A stretch of DNA of 64,000 nucleotides from Geodermatophilus obscurus (GTDB lineage: Bacteria > Actinomycetota > Actinomycetes > Mycobacteriales > Geodermatophilaceae): assembly GCF_900115395.1 (NCBI RefSeq), contig NZ_FOWE01000008.1, positions 1 through 64,000 on the forward strand, given 5' to 3'. The position numbers and the translations under genes were made by a program. Shown here piece after piece: positions 25,029-40,865 of this stretch (its first letter is position 1; the number at the start of each line of letters is the position of its first letter). A model generated the notes under the pieces. That model was not told the origin of the DNA. It searched no databases and saw nothing but the letters and a program-made list of their open reading frames with translations.

Positions 25029-25053
25029 CACCCCTGGGGGGTAGGGGTACAGT
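25025..25053 (+). promoter_or_regulatory. csoR promoter with embedded copper operator
   Basis: CTGACA (25025-25030) and TACAGT (25048-25053) are 17 bp apart. The spacer is filled by the G-tract inverted repeat CCCCTGGGGGGTAGGGG, the type of site bound by CsoR. The -10 ends 7 nt before the GTG at 25061. CsoR bound here would block the polymerase until Cu(I) releases it. Confidence 0.75.
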
Positions 25054-25060
25054 GAGCGGT

Positions 25061-25372
25061 GTGACCGACCCGGAGACCGCACCCGCCCACGTGCACGGGT
25101 ACATCCACCGCAAGGACGACCACCTCAAGCGGCTGCGCCGCATCGAGGGGCAGGTCCGCGGCCTGCAGCGGATGGTCGAGGACGAGAAGTACTGCATCGA
25201 CATCCTCACGCAGGTCTCGGCGGTGAACTCCGCCCTGCAGTCGGTCGCCCTGGGCCTGCTGGAGGAGCACCTCTCCCACTGCGTCGCCGAGGCGGTCGCC
25301 ACCGGTGGCCCGGAGGCCGACGCCAAGGTGCGCGAGGCCTCCGCCGCCATCGCCCGGCTCGTCCGCTCCTGA
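25061..25372 (+). CDS. csoR: Copper-sensing repressor CsoR
   Basis: A 103-residue all-helical repressor (DUF156). The Cu(I) ligands Cys-His-Cys are visible in EKYCIDIL and EEHLSHCV. The N-terminal HLKRLRRIEGQVRG is the usual DNA-binding start. CsoR releases its operator when copper rises. The start is chosen at the GTG at 25061 because a -10 box places transcription there; a GTG at 25052 would lie inside the promoter. It heads the operon csoR-copZ-exported protein-copA. Confidence 0.95.
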   Translation: MTDPETAPAHVHGYIHRKDDHLKRLRRIEGQVRGLQRMVEDEKYCIDILTQVSAVNSALQSVALGLLEEHLSHCVAEAVATGGPEADAKVREASAAIARLVRS

Positions 25373-25398
25373 CCCACGCCCACCCCCCGGAGGACCCC

Positions 25399-25608
25399 GT
25401 GAGCACCGCCACCTACACCGTCACCGGCATGACCTGCCAGCACTGCGTCTCCGCCGTCACCGAGGAGGTCAGCGGCCTGCCCGGCGTCACCGGCGTGCAG
25501 GTCGACCTGCCCAGCGGCGGCCTGACCGTCACCAGCGACGCCCCGCTCGACGACGACGCCGTGCGCGCCGCCGTCGGGGAGGCCGGCTACGAGGTCGTCG
25601 GCCGCTGA
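25399..25608 (+). CDS. copZ: CopZ-type copper chaperone (HMA domain)
   Basis: A 69-residue single heavy-metal-associated domain. The metal site [11 protein letters not shown] (residues 8-18) with its CxxC is intact, and the ferredoxin-like fold ends [11 protein letters not shown]. It carries Cu(I) in the cytosol to CopA. GTG at 25399 follows CGGAGGACC. Its stop TGA overlaps the next ATG by one base. Confidence 0.95.
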
Positions 25609-26474
25609 TGCGCACCCCCGTCCGGCTCGCCGCCACCGCCCTGGGCCTGGCCGCCGTCCTCGGCGCCGGGTGGGGCGCCGGCGCGCTCGCCGGCCCGGTC
25701 GGCGCCGCGCCGCCCCCCGCGCACGCCGAGGACGCCGGCCACGCCGGAGCGGACTCCCACGAGGCCGCCGCGGCGGAGCACGACCTGCCCGCAGGCCTGG
25801 CGGTCTCCGCGGAGGGCCACACGCTCGACCTGGCCGCCGACGCGCTGCCCTCCGGCGACGCCGTCCCGCTGTCGTTCCGGCTGCTCGGGCCCGACGGCGC
25901 CCCGGTGACCGCCTACGAGACCGTGCACGAGCAGGACCTGCACCTCGTCGTCGTGCGCCGCGACCTGAGCGGCTACCAGCACCTGCACCCCACCCTCGCG
26001 CCCGACGGCACCTGGACGACGACGGTCGCGCTGGCCCCCGGCTCCTGGCGGGTGGTCGCCGACTCGACGCCGACCGCGCACGACGCCGGGCTGGTGCTCG
26101 GTGCCGACCTCGCCGTCGGCGGCGCGAGCGAGCCGGTGCCGCTGCCGGCGTCGTCCCCGACCGCGGAGGTCGACGGCTACACCGTCACCGTCGAGGGCGA
26201 CCTGGTCGCCGGGCAGGAGTCCGAGGTGGTGGTGACCGTCGCCCGCGACGGCGTCCCGGTGACCGACCTGCAGCCGTACCTGGGCGCCCGCGGCCACCTG
26301 GTCGCGCTGCGCGCCGGCGACCTCGGCTACCTGCACGTGCACCCGACCGCCGCCACCGGCGCGGAGGTCCGCTTCGCCGTCGAGGTGCCCGCGGCCGGCG
26401 ACCACCGGCTGTTCTTCGACTTCCGGCACGGCGACGTCGTCCGCACCGCCGCCGTCACGGTGACCGCCCGGTGA
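25608..26474 (+). CDS. Exported copper-operon protein, histidine-rich
   Basis: A 288-residue protein with an N-terminal signal or anchor helix (residues 6-35) and a predicted exported beta-rich body. Histidines cluster after the signal ([20 protein letters not shown]), and two matching motifs, YQHLHP (near 123) and YLHVHP (near 245), could hold metal. No known enzyme domain is seen. Proteins of this kind recur between copper chaperone and copA genes in actinobacteria. Role in periplasmic-side copper handling is inferred from operon position. It is joined to both neighbours by overlapping stop/start codons. Confidence 0.8.
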
Positions 26475-28726
26475 CCGCGCAGGTCGAGCTCACGATCGGC
26501 GGGATGACCTGCGCCTCGTGCGCGGCCCGCATCGAGAAGAAGCTCAACCGGCTCGACGGCGTCACCGCCACGGTCAACTACGCCACCGAGAAGGCCCGCG
26601 TGGTCTACGGCGACGGCGTGACGCCCGAGGACCTGGTGGCCACCGTCGAGAGGACCGGCTACACCGCCCAGCCCGTTCGGCCCCGTCCAGAGGCTCGCCC
26701 CGAGCCTGCGAGGGGTGAGGAGGACGGGGTCCTCCGACCGGACGCCGCGCTGCGCACCCGGCTGGTGGTCTCGGCGGTGCTCACCGTGCCCGTCGTGCTG
26801 CTGGGCATGGTGCCGGCGCTGCAGTTCGACCACTGGCAGTGGCTGTCGCTCACCCTGGCCGCGCCGGTCGTCGTCTGGGGCGGGCTGCCGTTCCACCGCG
26901 CCGCCTGGACCAACCTGCGGCACGGCGCGGCCACCATGGACACCCTCGTGTCGCTCGGCACGGGTGCGGCGTTCCTGTGGTCGCTGTACGCGCTGTTCCT
27001 CGGCACCGCCGGCGACCCCGGCATGACGCACGAGTTCTCCCTCGCCGTCACCCGCACCGACGGCAGCGGCGACGTCTACCTCGAGGCCGCCGCCGGGGTG
27101 ACCACGTTCCTGCTGGCCGGCCGCTACGCCGAGGCACGCGCCAAGCGGCGTGCCGGGTCGGCGCTGCGGGCGCTGCTGGAGATGGGCGCCCGCGAGGTGT
27201 CGGTCCTGCGCGGTGGGGCCGAGACCCGGGTGCCGGTGGACGCGCTGCACCCCGGCGACCTGTTCGTCGTCCGCCCGGGCGAGCGGGTGGCCACCGACGG
27301 CGAGGTGGTCGAGGGCTCCTCGGCCGTCGACGCCTCCATGCTCACCGGTGAGCCGGTGCCGGTGGAGGTCGGGCCGGGCGACGCCGTCGTCGGGGCGACG
27401 GTCAACGCCGGCGGCCGGCTGGTCGTGCGGGCCACCCGGGTCGGCGCGGACACCCAGCTGGCGCAGATGGCCCGGCTGGTCGAGGAGGCGCAGAACGGCA
27501 AGGCCCAGGTGCAGCGGCTGGCCGACCGCGTCTCCGGGGTCTTCGTGCCCGTGGTGCTCGCGCTCGCCGCCGCCACCCTCGGCTTCTGGATCGGCACCGG
27601 CGCCGGGCTGGCCGGGGCGTTCCCCGCCGCCGTGGCCGTGCTGATCATCGCCTGCCCGTGCGCGCTCGGGCTGGCCACGCCGACCGCGCTCATGGTCGGC
27701 ACCGGCCGCGGCGCGCAGCTGGGCATCCTGGTGCGCGGACCCGAGGTGCTGGAGTCCACGCGCCGGGTGGACACCGTGGTGCTCGACAAGACCGGCACGG
27801 TCACCACCGGCCGGATGAGCCTGGTCGACGTCGTCGCCGCCGACGGCGAGGACGCGGCCGAGGTGCTGCGCCGCGCCGGCGCGCTGGAGGACGCCTCCGA
27901 GCACCCGATCGCGGCCGCCGTCGCCACCGCCGCCCGCGAGCGGGCCGGCACGCTGCCGGCCGTCGCCGGATTCCGGGCCGAGGCGGGGCTGGGCGTGCGC
28001 GGCACGGTCGAGGGCACGGCGGTCGTCGTCGGCCGGCCGGCACTGGTGGGGGCGCCGCCTGCGGAGCTGACCGCGGCGGTGGCCGCCGCCGACGCCGCCG
28101 GGCGGACCGCGGTCGCCGTCGGCTGGGACGGCGCGGTGCGCGGCGTGCTGGTCGTCGCCGACACCGTCAAGCCGACCTCCGCCGCCGCCGTGCGACAGTT
28201 CCGCGACCTGGGGCTGCGGCCGGTGCTGCTCACCGGCGACTCGGCGGCCGCCGCCCGTGCCGTGGCCGCGGAGGTCGGCATCGACGACGTGGTGGCCGAG
28301 GTGCTGCCGCAGGAGAAGGTCGACGCCGTCCGGCGGCTGCAGGCCGAGGGGCACACCGTGGCGATGGTCGGCGACGGCGTCAACGACGCGGCCGCGCTCG
28401 CCCAGGCCGACCTCGGGCTGGCGATGGGCACCGGCACCGACGTCGCCATCCAGGCCAGCGACCTCACCCTCGTGCGCGGCGACCTGCGCGCCGCCGCCGA
28501 CGCCGTCCGGCTGGCCCGCCGCACGCTCGCGGTGATCAAGGGCAACCTGTTCTGGGCGTTCGCCTACAACGTCGCGGCGATCCCGCTGGCCATGGCCGGG
28601 CTGCTCAACCCGATGATCGCCGGTGCGGCGATGGCGCTGAGCTCGGTGTTCGTGGTCACCAACAGCCTGCGGCTGCGGCGGTTCGCACCCCTGCCGGGCA
28701 ACGCGACCTCCGCGGTCCCGGGCTGA
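26471..28726 (+). CDS. copA: Cu(I)-exporting P1B-type ATPase
   Basis: A 751-residue membrane pump that expels Cu(I). One N-terminal HMA domain (GMTCASC at 11-17), about eight transmembrane helices, the actuator TGEPVPVE, the membrane metal site ACPCALG, the phosphorylation motif DKTGTVTTG, the HP of the nucleotide domain (SEHPIAAAV) and [10 protein letters not shown] are all present. Residues about 70-88 between the HMA domain and the first helix are encoded by a dispersed palindrome. GTG at 26471 overlaps the previous stop by 4 bp. It is the last gene of the CsoR-controlled operon. Confidence 0.96.
26679..26735. repeat. Dispersed palindromic element, copy 6 (in copA)
   Basis: CCCCGTCC (26681-26688) pairs with GGACGGGG (26722-26729). 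It is inserted in frame in the linker between the HMA domain and the first membrane helix and encodes [18 protein letters not shown]. Confidence 0.88.
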
Positions 28727-30320: not shown

Positions 30321-31259
30321 CTACAGGGCCGGGGCCAGGAGCAGGACGGTCGGGACCAGCAGCAGCAGGCCCGCGCAGGCCAGCGCGGCGGCGCGGGCGG
30401 CGGCCGGCAGGGGCGACGGCGGGCCGAGCAGCCGCGCCACCCGGGCGGACACCGCGCCGCCGGCGACCGCCAGCGCGCCGCTGGGCACGCCGCCGGCTCC
30501 CCCGGCCGCTCCGCCGACCGCGAGGACGATCGCCTGCGCCAGCGTGCGCCGCGGGTCCGGGCCGGCCAGCGAGGCCACGGCACGGTCGTCGGCGCGCATC
30601 TCGACCAGCTCCCGCACGGCGGCGTGCGCCCGCGCCGCCGCCGGCAGCACCGGCAGCGCCGCCTCCCAGGCCACGAACGGCAGCAGGTAGAGGTGGTGGT
30701 GCTCGGCCAGGTGCGCCCGCTCGTGGGCGACGACGGCGGCGAGCTGGGCGTCGTCGAGCTCGGCGACCATGCCGGAGGACAGCACCAGCAGCGGGCGGGC
30801 GCCGGGGATGCAGAACGCCACCGGCGCCGGGTGCTCGAGCAGCCGCGCGTCGGGGACGGCGTCGGCGGGCCGGACGACGAGCTCGAGCAGCTCGCGGTGC
30901 CGGCGGCGGGCGCGGGCGGTGCGCGCCCACGACAGCGCGAGCACGCCGAGCAGCTCGGCCGCGAGGACGGCGGCCAGGGTCAGCGCGACCCAGTGGTCGC
31001 CGCGGACCGGGTCGCGGGCGGGCTGCCCGGTGAGCACCGCCCAGCCCGCCTCGGGCAGCGAGTGACCCCAGGGTGCCAGGCCGTGGACCAGCAGCGCGCC
31101 GATGATCGACAGGCCGCCGGCCAGCCCGATCGCCTGCCAGCAGACCAGGGCGACCAGCGGGTCGCGGCGCGGCCAGCGGGCGCGGCCCAGCAGCGCCGGT
31201 ACCGGCCACGCCAGCAGCGCGGCCAGCACGGCGAGCGCGGCCGCGGTGGCGGGGAGCAC
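30321..31259 (-). CDS. M56 family (BlaR1-like) membrane metallopeptidase
   Basis: A 312-residue membrane protease. About four hydrophobic helices (residues 1-25, 40-62, 85-110 and the C-terminus) surround a zinc site with HERAH in VVAHERAHLAEHHHL near residue 180, plus a downstream EMRADDRA likely holding the third ligand. It lacks the penicillin-binding sensor of BlaR1. Such proteins cleave a BlaI-type repressor on signal. The start is one base after the blaI stop, so the two are cotranscribed. The signal it senses is unknown. Confidence 0.9.
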   Translation of the reverse strand: MLPATAAALAVLAALLAWPVPALLGRARWPRRDPLVALVCWQAIGLAGGLSIIGALLVHGLAPWGHSLPEAGWAVLTGQPARDPVRGDHWVALTLAAVLAAELLGVLALSWARTARARRRHRELLELVVRPADAVPDARLLEHPAPVAFCIPGARPLLVLSSGMVAELDDAQLAAVVAHERAHLAEHHHLYLLPFVAWEAALPVLPAAARAHAAVRELVEMRADDRAVASLAGPDPRRTLAQAIVLAVGGAAGGAGGVPSGALAVAGGAVSARVARLLGPPSPLPAAARAAALACAGLLLLVPTVLLLAPAL

Positions 31260-31260
31260 G

Positions 31261-31605
31261 TCAGCTCTCGGCCAGCAGCTGCCGCAGCAGCCGGGCCTCC
31301 TCCGGGTCGACCCCGCCGACGAAGCGCGCCAGCACCGCCTGCCGGTCGGCCGACGCGCCGAGCACCTCGTGCATGAGCTCGGCCGCGTGCTGCTCGCGGG
31401 TGGCGGTGGGGCGGAACCGGCGCGGCCGGGCGTCGTCGTGGCGGACGAAGCCCTTGCCCTCCAGCCGCGACAGCACCGTGTGCACGGTGGTGAGGGCCAG
31501 CTCGCGGTCGGCCAGGGCGTCGCGCAGCTCGGCCGCGGCCACCGGGCCGTCAGCCGCCCACAGCACGCCCATGACGGTGCGCTCCAGGTCACCCAGCGAC
31601 GCCAC
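31261..31605 (-). CDS. BlaI/MecI/CopY family repressor
   Basis: A 114-residue winged-helix repressor. LGDLERTVMGVLWAADGP opens the DNA-binding domain, TTVHTVLSRLEGKGFVRHDD is the recognition helix and wing, and the C-terminal helix dimerises. Members are inactivated by cleavage by the M56 protease encoded next to it. Three copies of GTTCTAC-N5-GTAGAA lie in the 170-bp divergent region: one before this gene and two before cydA, which makes cytochrome bd its probable main target. GTG at 31605 has GCAGGAGGAACC upstream. Confidence 0.93.
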   Translation of the reverse strand: MASLGDLERTVMGVLWAADGPVAAAELRDALADRELALTTVHTVLSRLEGKGFVRHDDARPRRFRPTATREQHAAELMHEVLGASADRQAVLARFVGGVDPEEARLLRQLLAES

Positions 31606-31623
31606 GGTTCCTCCTGCCGGTCG

Positions 31624-31642
31624 GTTCTACCCAGCGTAGAAC
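31624..31642. promoter_or_regulatory. BlaI-type operator 1
   Basis: GTTCTAC-ccagc-GTAGAAC, a perfect inverted repeat with 7-bp arms, 19 bp before the blaI-family start codon. Probably autoregulatory. Confidence 0.8.
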
Positions 31643-31691
31643 GGCCGCGCCACCGGCCGCACGGACCCTGTCGCGCACCTCACCCCGACTC

Positions 31692-31710
31692 GTTCTACGG
31701 GATGTAGAAA
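31692..31710. promoter_or_regulatory. BlaI-type operator 2
   Basis: GTTCTAC-gggat-GTAGAAA, with 6-bp perfect arms, upstream of cydA. Its centre is 23 bp from that of operator 3, about two helical turns, so two dimers could bind on the same face. Confidence 0.8.
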
Positions 31711-31714
31711 CAGA

Positions 31715-31733
31715 GTTCTACGAGGCGTAGAAA
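31715..31733. promoter_or_regulatory. BlaI-type operator 3
   Basis: GTTCTAC-gaggc-GTAGAAA, closest to cydA, ending 42 bp before its start codon. Same arms and 5-bp spacer as the other two sites. Confidence 0.8.
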
Positions 31734-31775
31734 GGAGGTGTCGGGACCGCGCCCGACAGGTGAGGAGCAGGTTCC

Positions 31776-33365
31776 GTGGACCTCCTGGGCATGGACACGC
31801 TGGACGTCGCCCGCTGGCAGTTCGGCATCACGACCGTCTACCACTTCCTGATGGTCCCGCTGACCATCGGACTGGGGATCCTGGTCGCGGTCATGCACAC
31901 GATGTGGGTGCGCACCGGCAAGCCGGAGTGGCTGCGGATGACCCGCTTCTGGGGCCGCGTCTACCTGGTCAACTTCGTGCTCGGCGTGGCCACCGGCCTC
32001 GTGCAGGAGTTCCAGTTCGGCCTGGCCTGGAGCGAGTACTCGCGCTTCGTCGGCGACGTCTTCGGCTCGCTGCTGGCGATGGAGGCGCTGCTCGCGTTCT
32101 TCCTCGAGTCGACCTTCCTCGGCCTGTGGATCTTCGGCTGGGGGCGCATCCCGAAGAAGCTGCACCTGGCCTCGCTGTGGGCCGCCGTCATCGGCTCGAT
32201 CGTCAGCGCGTACTTCATCATCGCGGCCAACTCGTGGATGCAGCACCCGGTCGGCGTCGTCGTCGGCGAGGACGGCCGCCCGCAGCAGGTCGACTTCCTC
32301 GCCGTGCTGACCAACAACACGGCCCTGGCCGCCTTCACCCACGCGATCGTCGCCGCGCTCGTGGTCGCCGGCGCCCTGCTGGTCGGCATCGGCCTCTACC
32401 AGCTGCGCAAGCGGAAGCTGGCCGGCGCCTCCACCACCGACGTCTCGGGTGGGCGGGTAGACGACACGGTGTGGCGCCGCTCGGTGCGCGTCGGCGGGTG
32501 GGTGTCGCTGGCCGCGTTCGTGCTGGTCGCCGTCACCGGTGACTGGCAGGGCAAGCTCATGTACCACCAGCAGCCGCTGAAGATGAGCTCCGCCGAGGCG
32601 CTCTGCGAGACCGAGGCGCCGGCGCCGTTCTCCGTGTTCGCCTGGGCCAAGCTCGGCAGCAACGAGTGCGACGACGTGCACAGCTACACCATCCCGGGGC
32701 TGCTGTCCTTCCTCGCCCACGGCGACTTCTCCTCCCCCGTCCCCGGCATCGAGGAGCTGCAGGAGGAGTACGCCGCCGTCTACGGCGAGACCTACCCCGA
32801 CGACCCGTCCTTCGGCGAGCGGGCCGGCGAGCCGGTCGACTACACCCCGGTGCTCGCGGCCACCTACTGGAGCTTCCGGATGATGATCGGCCTGGGCGGC
32901 GTCTCCGCCGGTGTGGCCGCCTACGCCCTGTGGGCCACCCGCCGGGGCCGGGTCCCGACGTCGCGGATCGGCGTCTACGGCTCGCTGGTCGCCGTCGGCG
33001 CGCCGTTCGCGGCCAACGCGGCCGGCTGGGTGTTCACCGAGATCGGCCGCCAGCCCTTCGTCGTGTACCCCAACCCCGACGTCCCGGTCGACGAGCAGGT
33101 GTGGTTCTTCACCGCCCAGGCCGTCTCCCCCGGCGTCACCGTCGCCGAGGTGTGGACCTCGCTGATCAGCCTGGGCCTGCTCTACGGCGCCCTGGCGGTG
33201 GTCGAGCTGGCCATCCTCGTCCGACTGTTCCGCCGCGGCGTCACCACCGGCGACACGACGCCGACGCCGCCCGCGGTGGGCAGCACGCGCACGGACGGCC
33301 GGTCCGACGACGACCGGTCCGACGACGAGCGCGCCGACGACGACGTCCTCTCCTTCGCGTACTAG
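31776..33365 (+). CDS. cydA: Cytochrome bd oxidase subunit I
   Basis: A 529-residue membrane subunit that carries the three hemes of the quinol:oxygen oxidoreductase. The first helix contains the heme b595 histidine in TTVYHFLMVPLTIG (His23), and GLVQEFQFGLAWSEYSRFVGDVFG carries the conserved glutamates. GWVFTEIGRQPFVVY is the family signature near residue 415. The C-terminus is an Asp/Arg-rich tail. GTG at 31776 follows GAGGAG. It heads cydA-cydB-cydDC, and two BlaI-type operators lie upstream. High-affinity oxidase is normally induced at low oxygen or when the bcc-aa3 chain is blocked. Confidence 0.97.
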   Translation: MDLLGMDTLDVARWQFGITTVYHFLMVPLTIGLGILVAVMHTMWVRTGKPEWLRMTRFWGRVYLVNFVLGVATGLVQEFQFGLAWSEYSRFVGDVFGSLLAMEALLAFFLESTFLGLWIFGWGRIPKKLHLASLWAAVIGSIVSAYFIIAANSWMQHPVGVVVGEDGRPQQVDFLAVLTNNTALAAFTHAIVAALVVAGALLVGIGLYQLRKRKLAGASTTDVSGGRVDDTVWRRSVRVGGWVSLAAFVLVAVTGDWQGKLMYHQQPLKMSSAEALCETEAPAPFSVFAWAKLGSNECDDVHSYTIPGLLSFLAHGDFSSPVPGIEELQEEYAAVYGETYPDDPSFGERAGEPVDYTPVLAATYWSFRMMIGLGGVSAGVAAYALWATRRGRVPTSRIGVYGSLVAVGAPFAANAAGWVFTEIGRQPFVVYPNPDVPVDEQVWFFTAQAVSPGVTVAEVWTSLISLGLLYGALAVVELAILVRLFRRGVTTGDTTPTPPAVGSTRTDGRSDDDRSDDERADDDVLSFAY

Positions 33366-33376
33366 GAGCCCCTGAC

Positions 33377-34396
33377 ATGGACCTGCAGACCCTGTGGTTC
33401 GCCGCCGTCGCGGTGCTCTGGACCGGTTTCCTGCTGCTCGAGGGGTTCGACTTCGGCGTCGCGGCGCTGCTGCCGGTGCTCGGCCGGCGCACCGCGGACC
33501 GCCACCTCATGCTGCGCACCATCGGCCCGGTGTGGGACGGCAACGAGGTCTGGCTCATCACCGCCGCCGGCGCCGTGTTCGCCGCCTTCCCCGGCTGGTA
33601 CGCCACCTGGCTGCCGGCGCTGTACCTGCCCTTCGTCGTGGTGCTGCTCGGCCTGATCGTGCGGGCGGTGGCCTTCGAGTGGCGGCACAGCTCGCACGAC
33701 CCGCGCTGGGACGCCACCTGGACCCGCGTCATCACCGGCGGCTCGCTGGTCGCGGCGGCCGGCGTCGGCGCGGCGCTGGGCGCCACCACGCTCGGCCTGC
33801 CGATCGACGCCGACGGCACCCGGGTCGGCGGCGCGTTCGCCGGCCTGGGCTGGTCCTCGCTGCTCGGAGCGGCCGCGGTGCTCGGCTTCTCGGTCGTGCA
33901 CGGCGCGCTGTTCCTCGCGCTGAAGACCGACGGCCCGGTGCGGCTGCGGGCGCGGGCGTTCGCGCTGCGCTGGTCCCCGGTGGCCGCGCTGCCGCTGCTG
34001 GCGTGGGCCGGGCTGGTGCAGCTGCGGTCGGGCACGACGGTCACCGCGGTGCTCTGGCTGGTGGCCGCGCTGGCCGTCGTCGTCACCTGGACCCGGGTGC
34101 GGCTCGACCGCGAGGGGCAGGCCTTCGCCGGCTGGGCCACCGTGCTGCTCGCCTCGGCGGCCACGCTGTTTGGCTCGGCCCACCCCGTGGTCGTGCCCTC
34201 GACGATCGACCCGGCGTTCGACGTCACGATCGCGCAGGCCTCGGTCAGCGACTACACCCTCACCGTCATGACCTGGGTGGCCGCCGTCGGGCTGCCGGTG
34301 GTGCTGGCCTACCAGGCGTGGACGTACTGGGTGTTCCGCCGGCGGCTGACCGCCGAGCCGGAGCACGACGACAGCGCCGAGCCGGTGGCCGCGTGA
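33377..34396 (+). CDS. cydB: Cytochrome bd oxidase subunit II
   Basis: A 339-residue membrane subunit with about eight to nine helices. It opens with TLWFAAVAVLWTGFLLLEGFDFGV and contains IGPVWDGNEVWLI, both typical of CydB. It pairs with CydA in the plasma membrane. ATG at 33377 is 11 bp after cydA, with TAGGAG as its ribosome-binding site. Its stop overlaps the cydDC GTG by 4 bp. Confidence 0.96.
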   Translation: MDLQTLWFAAVAVLWTGFLLLEGFDFGVAALLPVLGRRTADRHLMLRTIGPVWDGNEVWLITAAGAVFAAFPGWYATWLPALYLPFVVVLLGLIVRAVAFEWRHSSHDPRWDATWTRVITGGSLVAAAGVGAALGATTLGLPIDADGTRVGGAFAGLGWSSLLGAAAVLGFSVVHGALFLALKTDGPVRLRARAFALRWSPVAALPLLAWAGLVQLRSGTTVTAVLWLVAALAVVVTWTRVRLDREGQAFAGWATVLLASAATLFGSAHPVVVPSTIDPAFDVTIAQASVSDYTLTVMTWVAAVGLPVVLAYQAWTYWVFRRRLTAEPEHDDSAEPVAA

Positions 34397-37300
34397 GCAC
34401 CGCCCGCGGGCCGCTGGCGCCGCTGGCCGGTGTGCCGGGGCTGCCCGGCGCGCTGGCCCGGGCGGCGGCGGCCGCGCTGGGGTCGACGGCGGGGCTGGTG
34501 CTGCTCGCGGCCGGCCTCGCGCACGCCGTCGCCCGGGCGGCCGGGTACGCCGACGGCGCGGTGACCGGACCGCTGGCGCTGGCCGCCGCCGGCGCGGTGC
34601 TGCGCGCGGTCGCCGGGACGCTGGGCGAGCGCGCCGCCGTCCGCGACGCCCGCCGCGCCGAGGACGCGCTGCGCCGCAGCCTGCTCGAGCGGCTGGCCGC
34701 CTCCCCCGCCGCGGTCGCCGCCGCCGGAGGGCCGGCCCCGGCCGCCGTGCTGGCCACCACCCGGCTCGCCGACCTCGCCCCCGGCCTGGCCGGCTACCTG
34801 CCCGCGCTCGCGCAGGCGGCCGTCGTCCCGCCGGTGCTGCTCGTCGTCCTCGCCGCCACGGACCTTCTCTCGGCCGGCCTGGTCGCGGTCACGCTGCCGC
34901 TGGTGCCGCTGTTCCTGGCGCTGGTCGGGCTGGCCACCCGCGACGGCACCACCGGCGCCGCCCGCGCGCTGGACCGGCTCGCCGCGCACGTCGCCGAACT
35001 GGTGCGCGGCCTGCCGGTCCTGGTGGGCCTGGGCCGCGCTGCCGAGCAGGTGACGGCGCTGGCCGAGCTGGGCGAGGCCACCCGCCGCCGCACGCTGGCC
35101 ACGCTGCGACTGGCCTTCCTCTCCGCTCTGGTGCTCGAGCTGATCGCCACGCTGTCGGTCGCCCTGGTCGCGGTCACCGTCGGCCTGCGGCTGGTGCACG
35201 GCGACCTGTCGCTGGCCGTCGGGCTCACCGCGCTGCTGATCGCACCCGAGGCGTTCGCGCCGCTGCGCGCGCTCGGCACCGCCCACCACGCCGGGGAGGC
35301 CGCCACGCTGGCCGCCACCGAGGCGCGCGCCGTGCTCGCGGCCCCCGTCGCCGCACCCGCTCCGGCCACCGACGACGGCGACCCGCGCGGCGCCGACGTC
35401 GCCGTCACCGGGCTGACCGTGCGCCACGCCGGCCGCGCGCTCCCGGCCCTCCCGCCGACCGACCTGGTGCTGCGGCCCGGCGAACTCGTCGTGCTGCGCG
35501 GTGCCAGCGGCTCGGGCAAGTCGACCCTGCTCGCCGCGCTGACCGGCGGCCTCGACCCGGCCGCCCGGGTCGCCGGCACCGTCACCGGCGTGCCCGCCGG
35601 CAGGGTCGCGCTGGTCCCGCAGCACCCGCGGACGACGGCGCCCACGGTGGCCGACGAGCTGCGCCGGCACGCCGCCCCGGAGCCCGGCGTGGACGCCGTC
35701 GCGGCCGAGGCGCTCGTCGTCGCGGCGCTCGACGCCGTCGGCGCCACCGCGCTCGCCGGCCGCGCCTGCACCACCCTCTCCCCCGGCGAGCTGCAGCGCG
35801 TGGCGCTGGCCCGGGCGCTGGTGCGGGTCCGCCGCGGCGCCCGGCTGCTCCTGCTCGACGAGCCCACCGCGCACCTCGACGCCGCTTCCGCCGCCCGCGT
35901 CGCCGCCGTCCTCGCCGCCCTGCGCGGCACCGTCACCGTCCTGCTGGTCACCCACGACCCGGCCCTGGCCGCCCTGGCCGACCGCGCGGTGACGCTGCCC
36001 GGCGCGCCGGGCGCCGTCGCGCCGACTCCTGCGATCGCGGTGCCGTCGGCGGCCGATCGCCCCGAGCACGCTGGTCTCGCCGCCGCGCCCGCCCCGGTGA
36101 CCCCGGCGCACCCGGCCGCCCCCACGGCGCTCGGTTGGCCGCGGCGGGCGCTGGTCCGCGCGGTCGCGGCCGGTACCGCGTCGGCCGGCGCCGGCGTCGC
36201 GCTGACCGCCCTGAGCGGCTGGCTCATCGTCCGCGCGGCGGAGATGCCGCCGGTCCTCACGCTGCTCGTCGCCATCGTCGGCGTGCGCGCGTCCGGCCTG
36301 GGCCGGGCCCTGCTGCGCTGGGTCGAGCGGCTCACCTCCCACGACGCCGCGCTGCGCATGGCCGCCGACCTGCGGGTGCGGGTGTGGCGGGCGCTGGCCG
36401 CCCAGGGCGTGGCCGCCGACCGGACGCCGGGCGGCGCGCTGGCGCGGGTGGTGGGCGACGTCGGGCTGGTGCAGGACCTCTCGGTGCGCGTCGTCCCGCC
36501 GGCCGCGGTCGCCGTCACCGTGCCGGCGCTCACCCTCGCCGTCCTGGCCGTGCTCTCCCCCGCCGCCGCGGGCGCCGCCACGCTGGTGCTGGCGGCCACC
36601 GTCGCGCTCGTGTTGCTGGCGCACCGCCGCGTCGACGCCGGCGCCGCCCGCGAGGAGGCCACGCTGCGGGTGGCCGCGCTGCGCGACGTCACCACCGCGC
36701 TCGAGGGCGCGGCCGACCTGCGCGCGCACGGCCTGGCCGCCACCACCGCCGGCGACCTCGCCGCCGTCGCCGGGCAGCGGTCGGCCGTGGCCGCCGGGAG
36801 CGCGCGGGCCGGCGCGCTGGGCAGCGGGCTGGTCGTCCTCGGCACCGGCCTCGCCGCCGTGGCCGCCACCGCCGTCGGCGCGGGTGCCGGGCTCGGCGGG
36901 CCGGTGGTCGCGGTGCTCGGGCTGGCGCCGCTCGCCCTGGCCGAGCCGCTCACCGGCCTGGTCGCCGCGCTGCAGCGGCGCGGCGCGCTGGCCGACGCCC
37001 GCGCCCGCCTCGACGCCGTCCTCGCCGCCCCCGTGCCGGCCGACCCCGCCGACCCGCGCCCGGCCCCCGCACCCGTCCGCGACCTCGCCGTCGAGCACCT
37101 CACCGCCGGCTGGCCCGGTGGCCCCGACGTGCTGCGCGGCCTGACCACCGGGGCGTCGGCCGACGGCGGCTGGCTGGTCGTCCGCGGCCCCTCCGGCGCC
37201 GGCAAGTCGACGTTCCTCGCGGTCCTGCTCGCCACCCTCCGCCCGCGCGGCGGGAGGTACGCGCTCGGCGGCACCGACACCGCCGCGCTGACCGGCGACG

Positions 37301-37761
37301 CGGTCCGCTCGCGCACCGCCTGGCTGCCGCAGGACGCCCACGTGTTCGCCTCGACGATCCGCGCCAACCTGGCGCTGGCCGCGCCCCGCGGCGTGCTCGC
37401 CGGCCCCGGCGGCGAGGCGCGGATGACCGCGGCGCTCACCGCGGCGGGCCTCGGGCCGCTGCTGGCCGGGCTGCCCGACGGCCTGGACACCCCGGTCGGC
37501 GCCGGCGGCACGGCGCTCTCGGGCGGCGAGCGCCGGCGGCTGGCCGCGGCACGGGCGCTGCTCGCCGACCGCGACGTCGTCCTGCTCGACGAGCCGACCG
37601 CCCACCTCGACCCGCCGACGGCGGCCGCGCTGGTCGCCGACCTGCGCCGGGCCCTGGCCGGCCGGGTGGTCGTCTGCGTGACCCACGACGACGCCGTCGA
37701 GCGGCCCGGCGACACCGTCGTCCGGCTCGGGACCGGGCTGCCCGTGGGCGCGGCTACCTGA
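34393..37761 (+). CDS. cydDC: Fused CydD-CydC ABC transporter
   Basis: An 1122-residue fusion of two half-transporters. Each half has about six membrane helices and one ATPase: Walker A GASGSGKSTLL near residue 372 with LSPGELQRVALARAL and LLLLDEPTAHLD, and Walker A GPSGAGKSTFL near 932 with LSGGERRRLAAARAL and VVLLDEPTAHLD. CydDC exports thiols or heme-related compounds and is needed to assemble cytochrome bd. Fusion of both subunits is usual in actinobacteria. The gene overlaps the convergent response-regulator gene by 8 bp. Confidence 0.95.
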   Translation: MSTARGPLAPLAGVPGLPGALARAAAAALGSTAGLVLLAAGLAHAVARAAGYADGAVTGPLALAAAGAVLRAVAGTLGERAAVRDARRAEDALRRSLLERLAASPAAVAAAGGPAPAAVLATTRLADLAPGLAGYLPALAQAAVVPPVLLVVLAATDLLSAGLVAVTLPLVPLFLALVGLATRDGTTGAARALDRLAAHVAELVRGLPVLVGLGRAAEQVTALAELGEATRRRTLATLRLAFLSALVLELIATLSVALVAVTVGLRLVHGDLSLAVGLTALLIAPEAFAPLRALGTAHHAGEAATLAATEARAVLAAPVAAPAPATDDGDPRGADVAVTGLTVRHAGRALPALPPTDLVLRPGELVVLRGASGSGKSTLLAALTGGLDPAARVAGTVTGVPAGRVALVPQHPRTTAPTVADELRRHAAPEPGVDAVAAEALVVAALDAVGATALAGRACTTLSPGELQRVALARALVRVRRGARLLLLDEPTAHLDAASAARVAAVLAALRGTVTVLLVTHDPALAALADRAVTLPGAPGAVAPTPAIAVPSAADRPEHAGLAAAPAPVTPAHPAAPTALGWPRRALVRAVAAGTASAGAGVALTALSGWLIVRAAEMPPVLTLLVAIVGVRASGLGRALLRWVERLTSHDAALRMAADLRVRVWRALAAQGVAADRTPGGALARVVGDVGLVQDLSVRVVPPAAVAVTVPALTLAVLAVLSPAAAGAATLVLAATVALVLLAHRRVDAGAAREEATLRVAALRDVTTALEGAADLRAHGLAATTAGDLAAVAGQRSAVAAGSARAGALGSGLVVLGTGLAAVAATAVGAGAGLGGPVVAVLGLAPLALAEPLTGLVAALQRRGALADARARLDAVLAAPVPADPADPRPAPAPVRDLAVEHLTAGWPGGPDVLRGLTTGASADGGWLVVRGPSGAGKSTFLAVLLATLRPRGGRYALGGTDTAALTGDAVRSRTAWLPQDAHVFASTIRANLALAAPRGVLAGPGGEARMTAALTAAGLGPLLAGLPDGLDTPVGAGGTALSGGERRRLAAARALLADRDVVLLDEPTAHLDPPTAAALVADLRRALAGRVVVCVTHDDAVERPGDTVVRLGTGLPVGAAT

Positions 37762-38404
37762 CGAAGCCGGAGCGGTAGGCCAGCACCACGGCCTGCGTGC
37801 GGTCCCGGGCACCGGTCTTGGCCAGCACCGCCGCGACGTGGCTGCGCACCGTCTCCACGCCCACCACCAGCCCGGCCGCGATCTCGGCGTTGCTGCGGCC
37901 GTCGGCCATCAGCCGCAGCACCTCCCCCTCCCGCGCGGTCAGCCGCGCCAGCTCCGGCGCGCCGGCCGGCCCGGCCGACCGCACGTGCCGGCGGGCGAGC
38001 TCGCGCACCGCATCCGGGAACAGCAGCGACTCCCCGCGGGCCACCGTGCGGATGCCGTGCAGCACCTCCTCCGGGGTGGCGCGCTTGAGGAGGAAGCCGT
38101 CGGCGCCGGCGGCCAGGGCGTCGAACACGTGGTCGTCGTTGGCGAACGTGGTGAGGACGAGCACCCGCGCCGCCGACCCGGCCCGCACCAGCGCGCGGGT
38201 GGCCGCGATGCCGTCCACGCCCGGCATCCGGACGTCCATGAGGACGACGTCGGGCGACGTCCTGCCCACCAGGTCGAGCACCTCCGACCCGTCGCCGGCC
38301 TGACCGACCACTTCGAGGTCGGGCTCGGCGCCGACGACCGCGGCCAGGCCACCGCGGATGAGCGGCTCGTCGTCGACCAGCGCGACCCGGACCACGGCGC
38401 TCAC
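37754..38404 (-). CDS. NarL/LuxR-type response regulator
   Basis: A 216-residue regulator. The receiver domain (residues 1-120) has the acidic pair DDE near residue 10, the phospho-acceptor aspartate in DVVLMDVRMPG and the lysine in FLLKRATPEE. The C-terminal LuxR helix-turn-helix is LTAREGEVLRLMADGRSNAEIA. The GTG at 38404 overlaps the kinase stop by 4 bp. Its 3' end overlaps cydDC by 8 bp tail to tail. Its targets are unknown, though the upstream membrane-protein operon is a candidate. Confidence 0.94.
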   Translation of the reverse strand: MSAVVRVALVDDEPLIRGGLAAVVGAEPDLEVVGQAGDGSEVLDLVGRTSPDVVLMDVRMPGVDGIAATRALVRAGSAARVLVLTTFANDDHVFDALAAGADGFLLKRATPEEVLHGIRTVARGESLLFPDAVRELARRHVRSAGPAGAPELARLTAREGEVLRLMADGRSNAEIAAGLVVGVETVRSHVAAVLAKTGARDRTQAVVLAYRSGFVR

Positions 38405-39618
38405 CGGGCGTGCACCGGCAGCCGCACGGCCAGCACCCACCGGCCGTCGGCGTCGGGGCCGGCCTCGACGGTCCCGCGCAGGTCCCGGGCCCGCTCCCGC
38501 AGCCCCCGCAGGCCCCGCCCGCCGCCGGGGGCCCCGGGGACGGTGCCGGGTCCGTCGTCGGCGAGCCGGATCCGCAGGTCCTCCCCCGCCGCCACGTCGA
38601 GCCGGCAGGCCGCGCCGGGCGCGTGCCGCAGCACGTTGGTCAGCCCCTCCTGGACGATCCGGTAGGCCTCGCGGGACACGACGGCCGGCAGGGCGTCGAG
38701 CTCCCCGGTCACGTGGGTCTCCACCCGCGCCCCAGCGTCGCGGGCGGTGCCGACGAGCTCGTCGAGGTCGCGCAGGTCCGGCGCCGGGGCGGTGCCGGCC
38801 CGGTCGCCGGACTCCTCGCGCACCAGCCCCAGCACGTGGTCGAGGTCCACCAGGGCACGGCGGGCGGCGTCCTCGGTCGCGCGGATCGCCGCCTCGGCCG
38901 CGGCGGGGTCACGCGTGACCAGCCGGCGGGCGGCACCGGCCTGGACGGTGACCAGGCTGAGCGAGTGGCCGACGCTGTCGTGCAGCTCACGGGCCAGGCG
39001 ATCGCGGCCGGCGAGCACCGAGACCGCCGCCTCGGCCGCGGCCAGCCGCTCGGCCGCGGACCCGGCGAGCAGCCGCGGGGCCAGCCCGGCGAGGCCGCGG
39101 CCGAGCAGGTCACCGCCGGCGACCACCGCGGCGGCGAGGAGCAGCGCGAGCGCCGTCCGCACCGGCCACCCGCCCGGGACCGCGACGTCGCCGAACAGGC
39201 CGCCGGCGTCCGGCGTCGCCGCGAGCAGCACGGCCGTGGGCAGCCCGACGACGAGGAGCGCCCCGGCCAGCCCGCCGGCTCCGACGTGCAGCACGACCAG
39301 CAGGCCGGTGCGGGTGCGCTGGGCCGCCGTCACGGAGGGCCCGACGCGGTCCTCGGCGCGGCCGGTCAGCAGCGCCGCGACCGCCGCGCCCTCGACCGGC
39401 CGGGTCTCGGCGAGGGCACCCACGGCCGCGAGCGGCGCGGCCACGACGAGGAGGGCGAGCGGGACCGCGAGCACCAGGGGCAGGCCGGAGCTGACGAGCG
39501 CCTGCACCGGCCAGGCCAGGACGACGCCGAACGCCAGCGCCAGGGCACCGCCGAGCAGCAGGTACACCCAGCGGTGCAGCTCCCTCCGCAGCGCCGGGGA
39601 GGCGGGTACGCGCACCAC
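38401..39618 (-). CDS. Sensor histidine kinase (HisKA_3, NarX/DesK type)
   Basis: A 405-residue kinase. The first 200 residues hold about six hydrophobic helices, so the signal is probably sensed in or near the membrane. The phospho-acceptor is in RLARELHDSVGHSLSLV near residue 210, and the ATPase domain shows EGLTNVLRHAPGA and ADDGPG with GRGLRGLRERA. I used the GTG at 39618 after CCAGGA; GTG codons at 39639 and 39642 are alternatives. It lies between a membrane-protein gene and its response regulator in one operon. Confidence 0.92.
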   Translation of the reverse strand: MVRVPASPALRRELHRWVYLLLGGALALAFGVVLAWPVQALVSSGLPLVLAVPLALLVVAAPLAAVGALAETRPVEGAAVAALLTGRAEDRVGPSVTAAQRTRTGLLVVLHVGAGGLAGALLVVGLPTAVLLAATPDAGGLFGDVAVPGGWPVRTALALLLAAAVVAGGDLLGRGLAGLAPRLLAGSAAERLAAAEAAVSVLAGRDRLARELHDSVGHSLSLVTVQAGAARRLVTRDPAAAEAAIRATEDAARRALVDLDHVLGLVREESGDRAGTAPAPDLRDLDELVGTARDAGARVETHVTGELDALPAVVSREAYRIVQEGLTNVLRHAPGAACRLDVAAGEDLRIRLADDGPGTVPGAPGGGRGLRGLRERARDLRGTVEAGPDADGRWVLAVRLPVHAR

Positions 39619-39656
39619 GGCGCCATCCTGGCAGGCCACCACGTCCGGGCCCGCCG

Positions 39657-40865
39657 TCAGGAGCCGACGGCGAGCGGCGGGCCGCCCTGCCCGCACGAGG
39701 CGCACGCACCGCGGCGGCGGAGGGCGTAGGCGGTGACCGCGGCGGCCAGCGCCAGACCCCAGGGCAGCGTCGGGAAGAGCACCAGGAACGCCGCCTCGAA
39801 CAGCTCCCCGGAGCCCAGCCCCGCGACGCCGATCGCGAGCATCCCGGGGCTGGCGGCGAGCAGCACGACGGCGACCAGCCCGCCGGCGACCACGGGGACC
39901 CGCACCGGCACGGGCCGCCCGCGCAGCACGGGCACCCAGGACGGCCAGACCTCGCCCCACGGCCGGATGAGGCCGATGGTGGCGACGGCGCCGCCCAGCG
40001 CCGCCACGCCCAGCGCCAGGCCGAACAGCCGCAGCGCCGGGTCCGACCCGTCGGGCAGCCCGACCGGCCACGGCGTCAGCCAGGTCATGCGCAGGAGCCC
40101 GTAGGGCAGCGGGCCGGCCGCGGCCACCAGCGTGGCCACCCGACCCCAGCGGGCGGCGGCCTCCGGCCGGGTCCACGCGGCGCCGGGCCGGCCGCACGAG
40201 GCGCAGGCACCGCGCGCGGCGCGCAGCACCAGCACCCCGAGGGCGGCGAGGAGGACCGCGCCGCCGATCAGCAGCGCGAGGTGCCCGCGGGCGGGCAGCT
40301 CGCGGGCCAGCGGGCCGCCGAGCTCGCCGGCGAGCCGCCCGATCGTGCCGGGCCGCAGCACGCCGCTGACGAGCCCGGCGGCGACGACCAGGCCGACGGC
40401 GGCCAGCCACGGCCGTGCCCGGCGGCTGCGCAGCGCCCCGACGGTGAAGACGGCGAGGAAGGCGGCCGGCGCCACGATCGCGGTGAGGTACCCGAGCAGC
40501 ACCAGCGCCCGCACGTCCGCGGCCAGGACGCCGAGGCCGGCGGCGACGGCGAGAGCCGCTGCGGCGGCACGGGGCGACGGCCGGCGCAGCGAGGCCGCCG
40601 CCGTCGCGGCCAGCGCGCCCACGGCCAGGGCGAGCACCAGCCACGCGGTGACCGTGGGCGGCAGCACGGTGAGCAGTCCGGAGCCGCCGTTCTCCGCACC
40701 CCCCTCCAGGCCGGGACGGGTGGCGGGGACCAGCAGCCACAGGGTGGCGAGGGCCACGTGCAGGGCGCCCCAGGCCGCAGTGGCCCGGAGGACCGTGCGC
40801 GGGACCGCTGCCCCTCCGGTGGGGGCGGCGGTCCGGGGCGGGACGGCGGACGGCGGAGCGGACAC
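39657..40865 (-). CDS. Multi-spanning membrane protein with two CASCG motifs
   Basis: A 402-residue membrane protein with roughly ten hydrophobic helices. Two identical short motifs, CASCG, occur on hydrophilic loops near residue 218 and at the C-terminal end near 391, which could bind a metal or form redox thiols. No family is recognised. It is the first gene of an operon with a histidine kinase and response regulator, so it may be a sensor partner or the regulated product. The GTG at 40865 is the best start; the upstream frame is not conserved-looking. Confidence 0.75.
   Translation of the reverse strand: MSAPPSAVPPRTAAPTGGAAVPRTVLRATAAWGALHVALATLWLLVPATRPGLEGGAENGGSGLLTVLPPTVTAWLVLALAVGALAATAAASLRRPSPRAAAAALAVAAGLGVLAADVRALVLLGYLTAIVAPAAFLAVFTVGALRSRRARPWLAAVGLVVAAGLVSGVLRPGTIGRLAGELGGPLARELPARGHLALLIGGAVLLAALGVLVLRAARGACASCGRPGAAWTRPEAAARWGRVATLVAAAGPLPYGLLRMTWLTPWPVGLPDGSDPALRLFGLALGVAALGGAVATIGLIRPWGEVWPSWVPVLRGRPVPVRVPVVAGGLVAVVLLAASPGMLAIGVAGLGSGELFEAAFLVLFPTLPWGLALAAAVTAYALRRRGACASCGQGGPPLAVGS

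Follow-up and report, generated by a model that had tools for sequence, protein, structure and literature searches.

What does a BlaI-type repressor control when its gene, together with that of a membrane protease, lies divergently from the genes of the cytochrome bd oxidase? This arrangement is found in Geodermatophilus obscurus within a window of 64,000 nucleotides, the whole stretch of DNA that was analysed (Table 1). Actinobacteria exposed to low oxygen, to nitric oxide or to inhibitors of respiration are helped to survive by cytochrome bd. It also limits the effect of bedaquiline and Q203 against tuberculosis, and there is little agreement on how its synthesis is turned on. Our comparison of sequences indicates that the BlaI module most likely controls respiration rather than antibiotic resistance.

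Table 1. Genes and predicted operators of the blaI-cyd locus, in window coordinates.
Feature	Position	Strand	Description
BlaR1-like membrane zinc metalloprotease	30321..31259	-	312 aa; HERAH and E220; lacks a sensor domain
blaI	31261..31605	-	winged-helix repressor, 114 aa, PF03965
Operator O1	31624..31642		GTTCTACCCAGCGTAGAAC; perfect 7-5-7 dyad, GTTCTAC and GTAGAAC around CCAGC; directly upstream of blaI
Operator O2	31692..31710		GTTCTACGGGATGTAGAAA; GTTCTAC and GTAGAAA around GGGAT; cydA side
Operator O3	31715..31733		GTTCTACGAGGCGTAGAAA; GTTCTAC and GTAGAAA around GAGGC; cydA side
cydA	31776..33365	+	cytochrome bd oxidase subunit I, PF01654, E 3e-148
cydB	33377..34396	+	cytochrome bd oxidase subunit II, PF02322, E 1e-89
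cydDC	34393..37761	+	ABC exporter for bd assembly, encoded by a single ORF (1122 aa) that holds two ABC_tran stretches

The repressor scores 74.2 bits against PF03965 where the Pfam cut-off is 22.6, and it is the only BlaI copy in the genome. The nearest solved structure is 2g9w, which is M. tuberculosis BlaI, and the profile of the protein also matches structures of M. tuberculosis BlaI, MecI and S. aureus BlaI. A weak NCBIfam match relates it to the CopY/TcrY copper repressors, but at 23.8 bits this score falls far under the cut-off of 121.95 bits. The start codon of the protease gene immediately follows the blaI stop. CydD and CydC were observed to be fused in one ORF with two ABC domains.

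The 170-bp gap between blaI and cydA contains three copies of GTTCTAC-N5-GTAGAA, one on the blaI side and two on the cydA side with their centres 23 bp apart. This had been described in an earlier note on the sequence, and both the reading of the letters and the pattern search agree with it. The centres of O1 and O2 are 68 bp apart, O1 lies 18 bp from the blaI start, and 42 bp separate the end of O3 from the start of cydA. An exact TTCTAC-N5-GTAGAA was found only at these three places in the whole 4.96 Mb genome, and base composition predicts about 1e-6 exact sites in a gap of this length. Within the window, the 18-base pattern with up to three mismatches gave 11 matches against 0.92 expected in shuffled sequence. 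Three places with one mismatch were found genome-wide and were dropped as candidates for extra regulon members since all of them lie inside coding ORFs. No operator was found before a beta-lactamase or PBP gene, as all three exact copies in the genome belong to the blaI-cyd locus, and this locus also forms the whole of the predicted regulon in the Geodermatophilaceae. A sigma-70 promoter scan of the gap gave no confident promoter. The predicted operators share the TAC...GTA arms and the position upstream of the repressor's own gene and its predicted targets that are expected of the BlaI/MecI type, and, as in the M. tuberculosis type, a predicted BlaI operator stands upstream of cyd, for which the Mycobacteriaceae show an equivalent.

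Inverted repeats of this kind could also act as RNA hairpins, either terminators or attenuators, and a scan does place two hairpins that resemble terminators on the minus strand of the gap. The arms of the repeats, however, are invariant in sequence and do not covary freely, their distance from the start codon differs widely across genes and species, and an Rfam search returned no family match. We ruled out an RNA element on account of the Rfam result and the lack of free covariation and regard this explanation as hardly credible.

The operators were then compared across related genomes. In the family survey of 114-115 genomes, in which a BlaI ortholog was defined by at least 66% identity and a dyad by an exact match, the ortholog was found in 90 of 114 genomes and the exact dyad in the identical 90, both being absent from the other 24. 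A backward-pattern control gave three matches over all the family genomes combined. Six genomes without the ortholog were examined and were observed to lack this cydA as well, two of them having only a relative of 28-30% identity; the module therefore appears to have been lost as a whole. Because blaI and cydA are lost together where this was checked, co-occurrence within the family cannot by itself tell regulation from linkage. The O2 and O3 pair is highly conserved, as it was found with up to two mismatches in all 48 aligned intergenic regions and with a spacing of 23 or 24 bp in 47 of them (shuffled regions gave 0.002 sites per region). O1 is restricted in this alignment to the Geodermatophilus subclade to which the window belongs.

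A wider set of 80 named loci, drawn from Geodermatophilaceae and Micrococcales, includes Geodermatophilus, Blastococcus, Klenkia, Modestobacter, Arthrobacter, Paeniglutamicibacter, Leifsonia, Microbacterium, Mycetocola and other genera. The dyad was observed upstream of blaI in 80 of 80 loci, and the order protease, blaI, dyads and cydA, with cydA divergent and adjacent, in 75. One Arthrobacter-like blaI-cyd locus (L150) lies on a contig whose record names Vibrio cholerae strain 35D; this is probably a contaminant or a mislabelled record.

Since linkage alone might mislead, we examined genomes in which blaI and cydA are separated. The two genes lie on different contigs in two Arthrobacter echini genomes, where cydA is preceded, at a distance of about 60-100 bp, by two exact dyads with a spacing of 24 bp. 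Another family supplied two genomes in which blaI lies megabases away from cydA; two exact dyads precede cydA in one (G161, at -68/-45) and one exact dyad together with a distal one with a single mismatch in the other (G204, at -69/-45). A further group, which its kinship and its match to M. tuberculosis BlaI suggest to be the Mycobacteriaceae, usually has blaI far from cydA. Here the shifted dyad TACTAC-N5-GTAGTA was observed upstream of cydA in 21 of the 26 genomes with BlaI, the other five being exceptions, and in none of the four without BlaI (Fisher p 0.005). Searches of eight of these genomes found exact copies at one to three places per genome: at cydA in all eight, at the unlinked blaI in six, and at three other places. 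At five loci (L220, L221, L222, L225 and L238) a second cydA subfamily (PF01654, 28-30% identical to the cydA of the window) likewise faces away from blaI, and two dyads spaced 18-19 bp are present there. As this distant subfamily is paired with blaI and dyads too, it seems that the association formed, or formed anew, on more than one occasion. As counter-evidence, most genomes of one family (f4) with a diverged cydA of 42-48% identity have a BlaI homolog, but no site was found upstream of their cydA.

These observations bear on whether the dyads could serve only the autoregulation of the blaI-protease operon, with cydA as a passive neighbour. Three Arthrobacter genomes in which cydA was not detected (L138, L140 and L149) do retain the dyad at blaI, and for this reason autoregulation of blaI is likely to be real. 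It would not, however, account for the sites that the unlinked cydA genes of A. echini, G161 and G204 have of their own, nor for the mycobacterial motif, which marks both cydA and blaI although the two are unlinked. Moreover, it is the O2 and O3 pair that is kept in 48 of 48 aligned species and not the blaI-proximal O1. A role in autoregulation only is therefore highly improbable, and it was ruled out because unlinked cydA genes retain their own sites.

We noticed that the letters of the operator change in parallel with the recognition helix of BlaI. Where the operators read TTCTAC, the helix is LALTTV(H/L)TVLSRL, i.e. LALTTVHTVLSRL or ..TTVLTVLSRL, and where they read TACTAC it is LAYTTVMTVLQRL. 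The pairing of BlaI with the dyads in G. obscurus is predicted from sequence, and a different transcription factor might in principle occupy them while BlaI acts elsewhere. This is very improbable, as the genome encodes a single BlaI, its presence and absence are identical to those of the dyad in 114 genomes, the dyads stand before blaI itself in every named locus, and the operator changes with the helix. The control of cydA by BlaI is a well-supported prediction; what the comparison shows is that the operators exist and are conserved, and that BlaI and the operators are linked to cydA both in cis and in trans. Control of cytochrome bd by BlaI had been proposed in the earlier note, and the conservation across 48 species, the matched presence and absence in 114 genomes, the operators of unlinked cydA genes and the joint shift of operator and helix in Mycobacteriaceae all argue for it.

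The partner of BlaI had been described as an M56 protease that lacks a penicillin sensor. The second part holds, since the protein is only 312 aa long and no penicillin-binding domain was matched in it by Pfam, so that it lacks the extracellular sensor domain which characterizes BlaR1/MecR1; its homologs are about 250-340 aa. The first part requires rewording. As expected of an M56-type gluzincin, the protein is a membrane protein of several helices in which the HExxH motif and the Glu downstream of it are intact, and the best fold match of its model is to BlaR1. The M56 family nevertheless scores under its curated cut-off (7e-4, 19.3 bits against 31) while M48 passes with a better score (2.5e-9, 37.7 bits). 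Because Pfam places it closer to M48 than to M56, the safe name is BlaR1-like membrane gluzincin. The AlphaFold (AF2) model is mostly helical with a pLDDT of 91, and its best PDB match, S. aureus BlaR1 (8exp), has a probability of 1.00 but is weak (E 0.023, TM 0.34); a direct search of PDB sequences gave chance matches only. In 31 homologs the HExxH motif (179-183; H179, E180 and H183), E220, H188 and D224-D225 are invariant, and W29, R32, P34, W41 and Q42 near the N-terminus are also common to all of them.

S. aureus BlaR1 cleaves BlaI between Asn101 and Phe102 (PMC9834060). Phe95 of the G. obscurus BlaI aligns with this P1' Phe102 and is invariant in 28 BlaI homologs, whereas the presumed P1 residue is Arg and not Asn, with Arg or His usually found there in the homologs. 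Given this invariant Phe, cleavage of BlaI by the protease is plausible and can fairly be inferred. BlaI might instead control cydA without being cleaved, by itself responding to a ligand, to redox state or to modification. This alternative draws on the P1 residue being unlike that of S. aureus, on a protease that has no sensor domain and resembles BlaR1 only remotely, and on a locus of Microbacterium halophytorum (L134:6607-7257) where blaI and the protease gene run in opposite directions, the sole pair among the 80 named loci that is not co-directional. Against these points, blaI and the protease gene are neighbours almost everywhere, and the catalytic residues and the P1' Phe are invariant. 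M. tuberculosis Rv1845c is also described as BlaR1-like in its action on BlaI (PMC5473688). We consider control without cleavage to be unlikely.

In the proposed mechanism, BlaI-family dimers would bind the three operators in the divergent gap and, when bound, would repress both cydAB-cydDC and the blaI-protease operon. O2 and O3, which are about two helical turns apart, would serve the cydA side, and O1 (and O2/O3) would serve blaI and the protease gene. Upon sensing trouble in the respiratory chain, the membrane metalloprotease would cut BlaI near Phe95, and with BlaI destroyed the high-affinity oxidase and the factor for its assembly would be made. Here we infer that the control is repression, that the protease cleaves BlaI and that the signal is respiratory or haem-related. 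The model as a whole, from repression of cydAB-cydDC and of the blaI operon through O1-O3 to cleavage of BlaI on respiratory trouble, appears to us quite probable.

An exact-dyad search of 17 Micrococcales genomes found 38 sites at genes other than blaI and cydA, and these sites were tallied by target gene. Nine of these precede hemQ (HemQ_actino over its cut-off) and eight lie between ctaE and qcrC of the bc1 complex (NF050122 over its cut-off). Flavohaemoglobin accounts for seven, in one case next to an Rrf2-family, NsrR-like gene, and a group III truncated globin for three. Haem, respiratory or NO-related targets therefore total 27 of 38, with the remaining 11 sites before stress, membrane or unknown genes, which include universal stress proteins, a 118-aa membrane protein, a 130-aa protein, a PNPOx-like protein and sucC. 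At the Arthrobacter-type loci (L184-L203 and L240-L255) the dyad was observed before qcrC, hemQ, flavohaemoglobin and the group III truncated globin in several genomes. This distribution suggests that in relatives of Arthrobacter the dyad marks a broader regulon for respiration, haem and NO. In Microbacterium and Frigoribacterium (L200:3015, L257:3060 and L258:3035) the dyad stands 2-3 bp from the start of the conserved 118-aa membrane protein (MEILRHA..), which has no Pfam or NCBIfam match. It precedes or overlaps the start of the 130-aa membrane protein, which is likewise without family matches, in two Arthrobacter-type genomes (L194:3021 and L243:3027).

Three observations point to electron-transport, haem or NO stress as a candidate inducing signal: the set of genes marked in Arthrobacter, the joint rise of cydABDC, qcrABC and ATP synthase when M. 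tuberculosis is starved of copper (PMC12140626), and the reported need of M. tuberculosis for blaR in growth on haem iron (PMC7058343). In M. tuberculosis, SenX3-RegX3 also controls cydAB (PMC5874750). A broader reading, which we offer only tentatively, is that the control of respiration and haem supply, and not of beta-lactamase, may be the ancestral and main role of the BlaI/protease pair in Actinobacteria. The protease might then monitor electron transport from within the membrane (by way of the quinol pool, haem or NO) through its invariant N-terminal residues W29, R32, P34, W41 and Q42, as a one-protein respiratory sensor that destroys a repressor.

The BlaI-cyd link is not wholly new, because binding of M. 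tuberculosis BlaI to the promoters of cytochrome bd and ATP synthase is reported in two papers (eLife 2017, PMC5473688, citing Sala et al. 2009; PMC5874750); the earlier note did not mention the cytochrome bd promoter in this connection. Like the present pair, M. tuberculosis BlaI (Rv1846c) and BlaR (Rv1845c) combine a PF03965 repressor with an adjoining sensor-less membrane protease, and binding at the cyd promoter is reported there. They differ in that blaC is a target and blaI does not adjoin cyd, whereas the predicted regulon of G. obscurus is one divergent locus. The operators differ as well, with TTCTAC in G. obscurus, whose genome has no further exact copy, and TACTAC in the Mycobacteriaceae examined. 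S. aureus BlaI/BlaR1 and MecI/MecR1 share the repressor fold, the HExxH...E membrane protease, the divergent layout and the Phe at the cleavage position, but the present pair lacks the penicillin-binding sensor domain, has other targets and carries Arg for Asn at P1. The operator sequence of S. aureus BlaI/MecI also differs from TTCTAC-N5-GTAGAA. HrrSA of C. glutamicum controls ctaE-qcrCAB, cydABDC, hemQ and other haem genes (PMC7337898), and a large part of the genes that carry the dyad in Arthrobacter belongs to this haem regulon; HrrSA is, however, a two-component system of unrelated proteins and the parallel is functional only. A literature search for BlaI together with cydA, qcrCAB, hemQ or Arthrobacter, with most subscription papers out of reach, found no paper linking them outside M. 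tuberculosis. What is new is the dedicated blaI-protease-cyd locus, its operator, its spread and depth, and the sites at qcr, hemQ, hmp and globin genes.

The question of what signal such a protease receives dates from the finding that mycobacterial BlaR lacks a beta-lactam sensor. A module dedicated to cyd provides a one-locus, genetically clean place to learn what sensor-less BlaR1-like proteases sense. The operators at qcrC, hemQ, flavohaemoglobin and truncated globin genes of Arthrobacter, together with the haem-iron requirement for M. tuberculosis blaR (PMC7058343), recast the actinobacterial BlaI as a candidate regulator of respiration and haem.

Reading of the ORFs brought out two further gene groups around the locus. 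About 3-6 kb from the blaI-cyd locus (25052-28726) lie a CsoR-like gene and one for a copper-type P-ATPase, and a LuxR-type response regulator with a sensor kinase (37754-40740) follows right after cydDC on the opposite strand.
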